Positions 723-7,213 of a DNA stretch of 64,000 nucleotides are shown here, piece by piece. How positions within the stretch are numbered: the stretch's first letter is position 1; each line of letters starts with the position of its first letter. The stretch covers positions 1,869,932 through 1,933,931 of the forward strand of contig CP046179.1 of assembly GCA_014075275.1 (NCBI GenBank), written 5' to 3'. The notes beneath the pieces were generated by a model. The model saw only the letters and a program-made list of their open reading frames with translations, was not told the DNA's origin and ran no database searches. The DNA comes from Boseongicola sp. (GTDB lineage Bacteria; Pseudomonadota; Alphaproteobacteria; Rhodobacterales; Rhodobacteraceae). Both the position numbers and the translations under genes were made by a program.

Positions 723-1479
723 TCTCGCCCTTCTCGAAGCAGCCGCCCGCGAAAGCGGCGAGATTGCCTGCCGTTTCTGGCGCGATGACCCGCAGGTCTG
801 GGACAAAGGCGGCGATGACCCGGTATCCGAGGCCGACTTCGCCGTCGACACCCACCTGAAATCCCGCCTTCTGACCGCGCGCCCCGATTACGGCTGGGTC
901 AGCGAAGAGACCGAGGATGATCCCGCCCGCCTATCCGCCGAAAGCGTCTTCATCGTCGACCCCATCGACGGCACCCGGGCCTTCGTCGCTGGCGAAAAGA
1001 CCTGGTCCCACTCGCTGGCCATTGCCCGCAACGGCCAGATCACCGCCGCCGCCGTTTACCTGCCCGTCCTCGAGAAAATGTATCTCGCCGGCCTGGGCGA
1101 AGGTGCCACTCTGAACGGCACTCCCATTCGCGCCACCGAAACCGCACTCAGTCCCGGCACAACCCTTCTGACCCCCCGCGTCACGCTGCAAGATCGCTTC
1201 TGGTCCGGCGCGGTCCCAACGTTCGACCGGCACTTTCGCCCCTCTATCGCTTACCGCCTCGCGCTTGTCGGCGAAGGCCGCTACGACGGAATGCTGACCC
1301 TCAGACCTTCGTGGGAATGGGACATCGCCGCCGGTGCCCTCATCGTTTCCGAGGCCGGAGCCAAAGCCACGGACCGACGCGGCGCACCGATGACCTTCAA
1401 CAGCCCCGCGCGCCAAACCGCAGGCGTCGTCGCAGCAGGGCACCAGACCCATCGATCCCTGATCAAACGCCTCGCCTAG
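709..1479 (+). CDS. Inositol monophosphatase-family phosphatase, CysQ-like
   Basis: A 256-residue protein with the Mg-dependent phosphatase signatures: an EE pair near residues 66-67 (WVSEETE), DPIDGTR at 84-90 and WEWDIAAGA at 202-210. These bind the metal ions and phosphate in the IMPase/FBPase/CysQ superfamily. Spacing and the E-A-D start of the first helix fit the 3'(2'),5'-bisphosphate nucleotidase (CysQ) branch, which recycles PAP from sulfate assimilation; inositol- or histidinol-phosphate phosphatase activity cannot be excluded. The start is TTG at 709, inside the end of pmbA, and no better start exists near the N-terminus. Its 3' end overlaps the convergent LysR gene by 17 bp. Confidence 0.82.
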   Translation: MPASDLALLEAAARESGEIACRFWRDDPQVWDKGGDDPVSEADFAVDTHLKSRLLTARPDYGWVSEETEDDPARLSAESVFIVDPIDGTRAFVAGEKTWSHSLAIARNGQITAAAVYLPVLEKMYLAGLGEGATLNGTPIRATETALSPGTTLLTPRVTLQDRFWSGAVPTFDRHFRPSIAYRLALVGEGRYDGMLTLRPSWEWDIAAGALIVSEAGAKATDRRGAPMTFNSPARQTAGVVAAGHQTHRSLIKRLA

Positions 1480-2386
1480 GCCCAGATCTCAATCGACGTC
1501 GGACAAAGCCTTCAAAAAAAGCCCTCAAAACCGAATACTCCGCCCTCACCTTCGGAAACACACAAACATACGGCTTCGCCATCGCAATCGATACGCTCGA
1601 AGGCCGGACAAGCGCCCCACTTCCGATATGCCCTTCGACAAAGCTCCTCGGCACCAAAGCTACACCTGCCCCATGCAGCGCCGCCGTGATCGCCACCGAC
1701 AAATCACTGACAACCACACTCGAAGCCCCCAAACCGTCGACCGCCCGCCCCGCTTCACGAAACCAATCCCGCCAACTTGGGCCGCTGCTATAAGACGCTC
1801 CCCAATTGGTCTCGATCAGCTTTCTAGCCGGAATATTCACCAACAACCCGTCGGCATCCCCAAACTCCTGCCAGAACGCCGGAGAGCAAACGGGAACCGC
1901 CACATCCTTGAACAACTCCCGCTCTTGCATCGCCGAATAGTAAGTCGATTGATACGTCAGCCGAACGTCCACCCCATCGCGCACAAAGTCGATGGGGTCC
2001 TCCTGCACACGGATATCCAGAACCGCCCCCGCCGCATCGCTGAACCCGGCCACCCGTGGCATCAGCCAGCAATTTGCCAAGGAAGGGATCACACTGACAA
2101 CCAGCTGTCGCGGGCTTCGGTTTTGCCGCAACCCCTGAACAGCCTCCGCCATCTCGTCAAAGGCACCCGCCAACCTCGGAAACAACTCTGACCCCGCATC
2201 CGTCAAATGGATCCGATTGCCCTGCCGCTGAAACAACTTCTTTCCCAGATGCTCCTCCAGATGCCGCACCTGAAGACTGACCGCAGCCGAGCTAACCCCA
2301 AGCTCCTCGCCCGCCTGCACAAAGCTTCCACACTGCGCCGCTGCCTCAAACGCCCGCAATCCGGTCAGTGATGGAAGATCGCGCAT
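1463..2386 (-). CDS. LysR-family transcriptional regulator, GcvA-like
   Basis: A 307-residue LysR protein. Residues 1-65 hold the winged helix-turn-helix (LTGLRAFEAAAQCGSF, GVSSAAVSLQVRHLEEHLG, KLFQRQGNRIHLTDAG) and the remainder is the periplasmic-binding-like effector domain. The motif set resembles the GcvA/AmpR branch. It is transcribed away from the Fe(II)/2OG dioxygenase gene with a 100-bp shared promoter region, the usual arrangement for a LysR regulator and its target, so it probably controls that enzyme in response to its substrate. The effector is unknown. ATG start at 2384-2386. Confidence 0.9.
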   Translation of the reverse strand: MRDLPSLTGLRAFEAAAQCGSFVQAGEELGVSSAAVSLQVRHLEEHLGKKLFQRQGNRIHLTDAGSELFPRLAGAFDEMAEAVQGLRQNRSPRQLVVSVIPSLANCWLMPRVAGFSDAAGAVLDIRVQEDPIDFVRDGVDVRLTYQSTYYSAMQERELFKDVAVPVCSPAFWQEFGDADGLLVNIPARKLIETNWGASYSSGPSWRDWFREAGRAVDGLGASSVVVSDLSVAITAALHGAGVALVPRSFVEGHIGSGALVRPSSVSIAMAKPYVCVFPKVRAEYSVLRAFFEGFVRRRLRSGPRRGV

Positions 2387-2486
2387 TCCTTACCCCCAAT
2401 TATTCTTATGAAAGCCTACAATTTTTATAGTTGCAACAAAAGCAAAACGACCCAAACTGCCCCCACCCAGACGGAGACTGCCTAAA
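2387..2486. promoter_or_regulatory. Divergent promoter region between LysR regulator and dioxygenase
   Basis: This 100-bp gap separates the two divergent genes and is AT-rich compared with its surroundings. It contains an imperfect dyad, ctacaatttttatag, within about 2423-2440, close to the T-N11-A pattern bound by LysR proteins. The operator assignment is inference from position and symmetry only. Confidence 0.35.
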
Positions 2487-3311
2487 ATGGAAGACCTGAT
2501 CGATCTTGACCGCTACCCGCTGCACCAGCCGAACAGCGAAAAATACACCACCCTCGTTCAGCGCTGCAAAAAGCAGCTCGATGCAAACGGCATGTTCGAC
2601 CTGTCCGGCTTCTTCCATGATCACACCGTCAAAGCCGCCGCCGAAGCCGTAAAACCTGCCATGGCCACCAGCGCCTTCCGCCACGCCCGCACCCACAACG
2701 TCTACTTCAAGGATACCGTCGACGGCCTGCCCGCCGACCACCCCGCGCTCCAGAAGGTAGAGACCGTCAACCACACGCTCTGCGCCGACCAGTTCGAAGA
2801 CAACCCGGTCATCACGCTTTACGAATGGGAACCCTTCGCCACGTTCCTGGCTGCAACGATGGGTAAACCAAAACTCTATCCAATGGATGATCCCCTTAGC
2901 CGCGTGAATATCCAGGCCACCTATGACGGCGAAGGGCTCAACTGGCACTTCGACCGGTCCGAGTTCACCACAACCATGCTGCTTCAAGCCGCCGACGAAG
3001 GCGGCGAACTTGAGTACCGCTCCAACCTGCGCACGCCCGAGGATCCAAACTATGACGGCGTCGCAGCAGTTCTGCACGGCGAAGACCCCGAAGTCGCGCG
3101 CATCAAACTGGCCCCCGGAACCCTGAACGTCTTTCGCGGCGTGAACACCATCCACCGCGTCGTCCCGGTCAAAGGTCCAAACGAACGCCTGGTCACGATC
3201 TTCACATTCTACGAACGCCCCGGCGTGGTCTTCACCCCAAAAGAACAAATGGGATTCTACGGGCGGACGGCCCCTAGTTCGGTGAAATCATCCCGCACCT
3301 TGCGGCATTGA
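2487..3311 (+). CDS. Fe(II)/2-oxoglutarate dioxygenase, BesD/HalD-like fold, predicted hydroxylase
   Basis: A 274-residue protein with a complete facial triad: His154 and Asp156 in NWHFDRSEFTTTMLLQ and a distal His223 in NTIHRVVPVKG, followed by Arg234 (PNERLVTIFTF) suited to binding 2-oxoglutarate. The block HFD-x-SEF-TTTMLL and the EGGELEYRSNLR stretch after it resemble the family that contains the free amino-acid halogenases BesD/HalD. Those halogenases carry Gly where this protein has Asp156, leaving a site for chloride; with Asp present, hydroxylation is the expected reaction. The substrate is probably a small free amino acid or similar metabolite (inference). No signal peptide is seen. 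The neighbouring divergent LysR gene suggests substrate-induced expression. Confidence 0.78.
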   Translation: MEDLIDLDRYPLHQPNSEKYTTLVQRCKKQLDANGMFDLSGFFHDHTVKAAAEAVKPAMATSAFRHARTHNVYFKDTVDGLPADHPALQKVETVNHTLCADQFEDNPVITLYEWEPFATFLAATMGKPKLYPMDDPLSRVNIQATYDGEGLNWHFDRSEFTTTMLLQAADEGGELEYRSNLRTPEDPNYDGVAAVLHGEDPEVARIKLAPGTLNVFRGVNTIHRVVPVKGPNERLVTIFTFYERPGVVFTPKEQMGFYGRTAPSSVKSSRTLRH

Positions 3312-5107: not shown

Positions 5108-6096
5108 TGCGACCTCCCGATTTCTGGCAAAATAAACCTGATCGGCCAGGGTTTATCGCCGCGATTCTGTCACCGTTGGCTTTTATTTACGCATCCGCAA
5201 CAGCGTACCGCGTTCAGCGGGCACCCGCAATCAAGCCTGACGTTCCTGTCATTTGCATCGGTAACCTGAACATAGGCGGCACCGGCAAAACGCCCACTGT
5301 GATTGCTCTAATCGAACTTTTGTCCAATCGAAATGTTCATGTCGTCACACGCGGATATGGCGGCAGTGAGGTTGGCCCTCTACACGTGAATGAAAAGAAC
5401 CACACGGCAGATGAAGTGGGCGACGAACCCCTTCTTTTGGCCGCCTTTTCAACGACATGCGTATCCAAGGACCGCGCTGCAGGCGTCCGTGCCGCACAAA
5501 ATGCCGGTGCCGAGGTTATCCTTTTGGACGATGGGTTTCAGAATCCAGACGTGGCCAAGTCGCTAAATCTTGTCGTCGTTGACGCCGCGCGTGGGTTTGG
5601 CAACGGCAAGGTTATTCCGGCTGGACCCTTACGTGAAACAATCCACGCAGGGCTTTCGCGCGCCGACCTGCTGCTATCTATCGGCAATTTGGAAGAGCAA
5701 GAAAAATTCGATCAACTATGGGGACATCAAATTACGGTCCCAAGGGTGCGCGCCGAAACCAAGCCGCTTCAAACTGGCATGGACTGGCAAGGTCAGCGAG
5801 TTCTGGCATTCGCCGGGATTGGACAGCCAGAAAAGTTCTTTCAAACACTTCGCTCGCTTGGGGCAAACATTGTGAAATCGGTTCCATTAGACGACCACCA
5901 GCCATTGTCCGACACGTTACTCAATCGGCTGCAAGCCGACGCAACCGCTTTGTCTGCGCAGCTGGTTACGACCGAAAAGGATGCAGTTCGTCTACCCACG
6001 GGCTATCGCCGCAATGTCCTTGCGCTGCCGGTTCGTCTAAAATTCACTCAACGGTCCGAGTTGGATATCCAACTCAATCGCCTAGACCTGACCTGA
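5107..6096 (+). CDS. lpxK: Tetraacyldisaccharide 4'-kinase LpxK
   Basis: A 329-residue inner-membrane-associated kinase that phosphorylates the 4' position of the lipid A disaccharide. The N-terminal segment FIAAILSPLAFIYASATAY is the membrane-associated helix, followed by the Walker A loop NIGGTGKTP near residue 60 and DDGFQNPDV, both characteristic of LpxK. The start is ATG at 5107, overlapping the stop of the WaaA-like gene as TGATG; the TTG three bases upstream is a less likely start. The gene ends 23 bp inside the convergent CoA-transferase remnant, with no room for a separate terminator. Confidence 0.93.
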   Translation: MRPPDFWQNKPDRPGFIAAILSPLAFIYASATAYRVQRAPAIKPDVPVICIGNLNIGGTGKTPTVIALIELLSNRNVHVVTRGYGGSEVGPLHVNEKNHTADEVGDEPLLLAAFSTTCVSKDRAAGVRAAQNAGAEVILLDDGFQNPDVAKSLNLVVVDAARGFGNGKVIPAGPLRETIHAGLSRADLLLSIGNLEEQEKFDQLWGHQITVPRVRAETKPLQTGMDWQGQRVLAFAGIGQPEKFFQTLRSLGANIVKSVPLDDHQPLSDTLLNRLQADATALSAQLVTTEKDAVRLPTGYRRNVLALPVRLKFTQRSELDIQLNRLDLT

Positions 6097-7213
6097 TCTT
6101 TTCGCCATCGGCATCCAGTTTTGGCGCTGCCTTCGGTTCAGACAGTTCTGCGTCCGAGAAAACGAATGGCGCGCGCACGCCCGGAACCCCGTCCTCCCCG
6201 ATTTTCATCTGACGGGCCTGAACCTGGGAGTCAGCGAAAACATCCGCCATCTCATTGATCGGCCCGGCTGGAATTCCTTGTGCCTCGCAGGCCGCCAGCA
6301 AATCGGCTTTCGCCCATTCAATGGTTTTTGCTGACAACAGACCGGTTAGCACGCTTCTATTTTCAACCCGGTCGGCATTGGTCACAAAAGACGGCGTCTC
6401 GGCCAACACCGAAAGGCTTAGCACAGCGCAAAGCCGTTGAAATTGCCCGTCATTTCCAGTGGCGATGATGATCCAGCCGTCACGGCATTCAAACACTTGG
6501 TAGGGCACTAGGTTAGGATGCGCATTGCCCAGACGACCAGGAGATGCGCCGGTGGCAAGGTAATTCAGCGCCTGATTGGCCGTGACTGATACCGCTGAGT
6601 CCAGCAAAGCCATGTCGATGTGCTGTCCACGCCCGGTCTGTTCGCGATGCGCCAAAGCCGCCTGAATTGCGATGACTGAGTAAAGTCCGGTGAAGATGTC
6701 TGTAATGGCGACGCCGGTCTTCATCGGCTAACCGTCCGGCTCGCCTGTCACGGACATCAGCCCGGACATTCCTTGAATTATATAGTCATACCCTGCGCGA
6801 TGCGCATAAGGCCCGGTTTGACCGAAGCCGGTGATGGAACAATAAACCAGGCGGGGGTTGAGCTTGGACAAGTTGCCATAGTCCAACCCGTATTTCTCCA
6901 ACCCGCCAAGTTTGAAATTCTCAATCAGCACATCGGCGTCGGCCACAAGCTGACGCACCAGAGCCTTGCCCTTCTCAGTTCTGAAATCCGCTACCACCGA
7001 TTGCTTGCCGCGATTACAAGCATGAAAATACGCCGCCGAGCGATCTCCGTCGCGCTCTATAAATGGCGGCCCCCAACGGCGAGTGTCATCGCCCTCTGGA
7101 CTTTCGACTTTGATGACTTCCGCACCGAGGTCTGAAAGTGTTTGACCGGCCCAAGGGCCGGCCAAAATACGTGCTAACTCAACAACTTTTAGGCCCGCCA
7201 GAGGCGTCGCCAT
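6074..7213 (-). pseudogene. CaiB/BaiF family III CoA-transferase interrupted by in-frame TAG
   Basis: One continuous frame from ATG at 7211-7213 to TGA at 6074-6076, 380 codons, broken only by TAG at 6728-6730 (codon 162). The N-terminal part has LAGPWAGQTLSDLGAEVIK and IENFKLGGLEKYGLDY; after the TAG the frame resumes PMKTGVAITDIFTGL, the expected continuation after SVTGEPDG. Such enzymes transfer CoA between carboxylic acids, for example formyl-CoA or carnitine derivatives. A single G-to-T change of GAG would create the TAG. It could be a true nonsense mutation, a sequencing error, or a read-through codon. It starts 1 bp inside the dsbA-like gene, so it is in that operon. Confidence 0.85.

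Follow-up and report, generated by a model that had tools for sequence, protein, structure and literature searches.

The oxygenase gene and its divergent regulator

The window, a stretch of 64,000 nucleotides of DNA from Boseongicola sp., carries an open frame with an ATG start at positions 2487-3311 (+) and a GGAG ten bases 5' of that start. The frame, the Pfam HalD profile and the predicted fold identify its 274-residue product as a putative hydroxylase-type oxygenase that depends on Fe(II) and 2OG and has the BesD/HalD fold. An antisense frame at 2406-3248 (-) was set aside as a by-product of codon use. Divergently oriented at a distance of 100 bp lies a gene at 1463-2386 (-), whose 307-residue product has profile matches to HTH_1 and LysR_substrate. 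The pairing with a divergent LysR gene, pointed out in the first-pass annotation, was thus confirmed. A LysR gene also adjoins the oxygenase in most of the 80 loci of relatives that were inspected, in many of which LysR is the sole neighbour. Comparison with these relatives also revealed a LysR-type box, TTATGAAAGCCTACAA (2406-2421), with one mismatch to TTAT-N8-ATAA. In the eleven relatives whose LysR proteins are most similar, the intergenic region contains a perfect TTAT-N8-ATAA, 71-76 bases 5' of the oxygenase start. Overall, 13 loci contain a perfect box, compared to 0.1 in single-base shuffles, a number that is inflated by related sequences. The nearest NCBIfam model of the regulator is GcvA, with a score well below the cut-off, and for this reason the profile does not name an effector. 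The expectation that the LysR partner would reveal the natural substrate was therefore not borne out, and the neighbours of the relatives proved more informative.

LysR is the only gene adjacent to the oxygenase in the window, with an inositol-monophosphatase-like gene beyond it; 3' of the oxygenase there is a gap followed by unrelated genes. Further along, at 6074-7213 (-), a frame of 380 codons for a CaiB/BaiF-type CoA-transferase contains one in-frame TAG (6728-6730).

Fold and active site of the oxygenase

The Pfam HalD profile (PF23169) scored 40.3 bits with the window protein, against a curated cut-off of 26, and a weak WelO5 match was also recorded in the profile search, while NCBIfam gave no model for the oxygenase. 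A phmmer search with the single sequence returned HalB as the sole match (E 0.24), and the use of a family profile in its place brought this match to 1.5e-6. An AlphaFold2 model, built from the window protein and 35 relatives, was confident (mean pLDDT 92.9, pTM 0.89), with low confidence at residues 265-274. The window protein has about 12 additional C-terminal residues (3273-3308), absent from most orthologs and modelled with low confidence. In Foldseek the top ranks went to BesD, HalD, HalB, HalA and 7JSD, the lysine hydroxylase of the BesD family, with TM values of 0.60-0.65 by query length at 12-17% identity. VIA-align 2 gave Z scores of 19.5-20.3 for most of the same set (about 20 for HalB, BesD and 7JSD); the next oxygenase, from outside this set, reached 16.8. 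The first-pass annotation had described the protein as BesD/HalD-like and had suggested a profile search and a structure prediction as checks; since the HalD cut-off is passed and both structural rankings put the solved members of this superfamily closest, the placement is right.

The His154-Phe155-Asp156 codons lie at 2946-2954 (+), with His154 and Asp156 as metal ligands by alignment, that of the second metal histidine, His223, at 3153-3155 (+), and that of Arg234, the 2OG-binding arginine by alignment, at 3186-3188 (+). The window protein therefore contains the motif of 2OG/Fe(II) hydroxylases, His-x-Asp...His plus an arginine for 2OG, where the earlier reading had located it, and alignments of 22 orthologs and of a second set of 36 have all four residues invariant. 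When the family profile was aligned with HalB, Asp156 fell opposite the glycine of WHWG, His223 opposite the second metal histidine and Arg234 opposite an arginine close to the C-terminal end of the fold; the metal role of Asp156 was judged from this alignment and from the fold match. Asp156 was present in 100 of 100 aligned relatives, and also in 20 of 20 paralogs (26-40% identity). For 80 of the 100 relatives this agreement is partly by construction, since the patterns used to retrieve them partly included the His-Phe-Asp motif, and the 20 relatives found by whole-protein search keep Asp156 as well.

In the BesD family, the change of the carboxylate ligand to a non-coordinating residue makes a halogenase, while a hydroxylase homolog retains the aspartate (PMC13244439). 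The free amino-acid halogenases BesD, HalB and HalD (6NIE, 7U6J, 7U6H) share with the window protein the fold, the WHx[G/D] motif and the C-terminal histidine and arginine, but the window protein has aspartate for glycine at the metal, and its substrate positions are changed. Because Asp156 is kept where halogenases carry glycine, a hydroxylase-type reaction is strongly expected from the alignment, in line with the hydroxylation rather than halogenation foreseen at first. A BesD-family hydroxylase with this aspartate is already known, namely the lysine hydroxylase "Hydrox" (PDB 7JSD), which has the same fold (Z 19.9 over 231 residues) and the same His-Asp-His triad (PMC13244439), but shares only about 15% identity with the window protein and has a different gene context. 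A further difference lies at positions that bind lysine in BesD. There, the aspartate that follows the glycine (D143) is one of the residues contacting the lysine amine, and the histidine three residues before the first metal histidine (H137; numbering of PMC13244439) is one of those contacting the carboxylate. Of these positions in HGWHWGD, the first histidine is replaced by Leu151 and the aspartate by Arg157 in the window protein, which argues, as far as the alignment goes, against a lysine-like free amino acid as substrate.

Distribution and gene neighbourhoods of the relatives

Homologs at E <= 1e-5 occur in 90 of 292 Rhodobacterales genomes, far beyond chance; about 34 of these matches have 48-65% identity and the remainder are paralogs at 40% or less. 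Closer relatives were also found in Rhizobiales, Pseudomonas, Sphingomonadales and others, one of them on a Mesorhizobium plasmid, and plasmids of Pantoea and Yersinia carry paralogs at about 33%, some also with a divergent LysR. A tree built from 100 relatives places the window protein, on a long branch, together with 17 proteins (SH-aLRT 87). The literature searched, with subscription papers mostly outside it, gave no assayed enzyme of the oxygenase clade.

Of the 80 oxygenase loci, 12 contain HAL-family genes, compared to an expectation of 0.29 at a density of one such gene per 4 Mb. The 20 paralog loci contain none, and along the tree the presence of a HAL neighbour switches nine times or more. 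In the subclade of the window protein, five loci link the oxygenase to a MIO-less lyase together with urocanase, an importer or both. Two of them (L079, and L081 from Cypionkella) have the order Dpp importer, LysR, oxygenase and a HAL homolog of the family f19, and a third (L088) has oxygenase, MIO-less HAL and Dpp. In L093, ProX-ProW-ProV is followed by a MIO-less HAL, LysR, the oxygenase and a second ProX, and in L086 the oxygenase and ProX face LysR, hutU, HutG- and HutI-like frames and a MIO-less HAL on the opposite strand. The HAL-like neighbours are of two kinds, f19 (with the motif VGAA-DL) and one with SVGY---L, and the two kinds share about 30% identity. Since the MIO-forming Ala-Ser-Gly is missing from all of them except the one in Silicimonas, their annotation as HutH was dropped. 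Homologs of the VGAA-DL type were seen in L033, L035, L079, L081, L094, L098 and L112 (as VGAS-DL in L112), so far solely beside this oxygenase family. At E <= 1e-60, f19 occurs in two of 292 Rhodobacterales genomes, both of one genus and in both cases 1.4 kb from the oxygenase. Deamination of free histidine requires MIO, and ergothionase is a MIO-less HAL homolog that expels trimethylamine from ergothioneine. Because ergothionase (6S7J) is the best solved match of f19, likewise without MIO, a quaternary amine is the probable target of the lyases next to the oxygenase; this likeness concerns the neighbour of the relatives and not the window oxygenase itself.

Among 385 genomes of the class, eight contain the SVGY-type lyase, and in all eight there was no oxygenase within about 10 kb of it, indicating that the lyase route has no need of the oxygenase there. 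Three of the eight, of one genus, have ProX-ProW-ProV-lyase-HutU, and another has HisJ-, HutF- and HutU-like genes. The arrangement ProX-ProW-ProV-(MIO-less HAL)-HutU without the oxygenase is seen in L208, L209 and L210, which are candidate trimethyl-histidine operons. Such an operon alone looks like a route from trimethyl-histidine to urocanate, and the oxygenase would then be an extra step. The Paracoccus litorisediminis (L093) and Pseudomonas (L122) loci have a second binding protein along with the oxygenase. Identity between the oxygenase-adjacent ProX proteins of L086 and L093 is 65%, and that to lyase-adjacent ProX is 57-61%; the Pseudomonas HisJ proteins adjacent to the oxygenase have 70-93% mutual identity and 49-56% identity to three lyase-linked HisJ; the exception is the HisJ of L075 which, although beside the oxygenase, groups with the lyase-linked ones. 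Binding proteins of the ProX type form an aromatic cage around the quaternary amine of histidine betaine (PMC9732360). The separate groups of binding proteins would be consistent with a second, related ligand, which the oxygenase may convert for the lyase.

In other branches the neighbours differ. DddP-like M24 proteins are encoded in 23 of the 80 loci, mostly directly downstream of the oxygenase; their nearest solved relative is the M24-family DMSP lyase DddP (4B28, 4RZY), but the partner scores 399 bits with the DddP model, against a cut-off of 600, and it does not adjoin the window gene. A Rieske oxygenase, MttB-family and DMGDH-like proteins, an Ldh-family oxidoreductase or a Dpp importer are encoded beside the oxygenase elsewhere, with Rieske, MttB, Ldh and enolase-superfamily (MR-MLE) genes in L101, L118 and L074. 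In Silicimonas the oxygenase and M24 genes adjoin a complete canonical hut cluster, whose HutH has the MIO motif. These neighbours are compatible with onium-group chemistry in which the oxygenase is the constant part, and other branches may use other betaines.

In the genome from which the window was taken, no pathway partner lies beside the oxygenase. The search for f19 gave pieces of canonical HutH alone, and the proteins most similar to the M24 partner had at most 41% identity, none adjoining the oxygenase; a DddP-like M24 gene lies far from it (L164, 8454-9875). The hut cluster of this genome has a canonical HutH in two frames and is flanked by MttB-family and DMGDH-like genes. As these are only 25-37% identical to their oxygenase-adjacent counterparts elsewhere, they were discarded as a direct link to hut and our case does not rest on them. 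The cluster (L163, G000:C1:3311500-3331000) lies between two transposase genes of the same orientation, equal at 980 of 981 bases; the two frames of hutH overlap, and the DMGDH-like gene next to MttB encodes 518 residues and ends beside a transposase, compared to about 810 residues in relatives. Since the partners are absent from this genome or weakly similar, the role in this organism is based on relatives of 69% identity or less.

Candidate substrates and their implications

Our preferred reading, which we put forward tentatively, is that the window protein is a hydroxylase-type member of the BesD/HalD superfamily from a branch serving most likely in betaine catabolism, with histidine betaine as the first candidate for its subclade. 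The oxygenase, with its intact His-Asp-His triad, would oxidise a histidine-derived betaine, either by hydroxylation or by removal of a substituent through hydroxylation, and the product would enter onium removal and then the urocanate (Hut) route. Hydroxylation of the ring or of a methyl group, demethylation and desulfurisation are candidate reactions. The divergent LysR would control the oxygenase. The neighbourhoods lead us to infer an N-methylated amino acid as the substrate, presumably histidine betaine or one of its derivatives (hercynine, ergothioneine or a similar compound) in the subclade, and to assume that the window protein would keep the role of its relatives although adjacent partners are missing in its own genome. 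It is tempting to go further and to speculate, with considerable doubt, that this branch of the halogenase fold is an undescribed aerobic entry step for a histidine betaine derivative, for instance the removal of the sulfur of ergothioneine or the loss of an extra methyl group. This step would feed both types of lyase without MIO, and in the remaining branches it would feed onium-removing enzymes that are DddP-like or of the Rieske or MttB type.

Several other readings have to be weighed against the histidine betaine. The link to histidine might hold in some branches only, the oxygenase acting on another onium compound, a proline-type betaine or a DMSP-like sulfonium. The DddP-like M24 genes and the Rieske, MttB, Ldh and enolase-superfamily genes would suit this, the latter group also fitting proline-type betaines, but the M24 partner is far below the DddP cut-off and it is precisely the subclade of the window protein that has the HAL-type lyases, urocanase and ProX, so that we regard this reading as unlikely. 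Somewhat less probable is the hydroxylation of a free, basic amino acid, as the first-pass annotation had assumed in naming free amino acids as substrates. Fold and triad match 7JSD, and the HisJ-like neighbour in Pseudomonas scores 210 bits with a lysine/arginine/ornithine model (cut-off 256). Against it speak Leu151 and Arg157 at the positions that hold lysine in BesD, the low identity to the lysine enzymes, and the genes beside the relatives, which handle onium compounds and betaines.

If the oxygenase were an oxidative N-demethylase of histidine methylated at the ring or the alpha-amine, it would supply histidine to a canonical HutH, as the Silicimonas locus and the MttB-family and DMGDH-like genes flanking hut in the window's genome might suggest. 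Most HAL neighbours lack MIO, however, and the low identity of those flanking genes to their counterparts weakens the second point, which makes this reading quite improbable. A halogenase could be argued from the Pfam HalD and WelO5 matches, but is very improbable indeed, since the glycine that accommodates chloride (glycine or alanine in place of the metal-binding carboxylate) is aspartate in every member seen.

Halogenation and hydroxylation of free amino acids are the reactions for which PF23169 proteins are known. If a histidine betaine or a related compound is indeed the substrate, the fold would gain a further class of substrates through a widespread branch that works on betaines, and a family whose homologs occur in about one third of the Rhodobacterales genomes sampled would be given a role. 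The MIO-less lyases beside the relatives are candidate trimethylamine-releasing enzymes. Such a branch of the oxygenases would also hint at how bacteria of soil and water make use of compounds like ergothioneine or hercynine.
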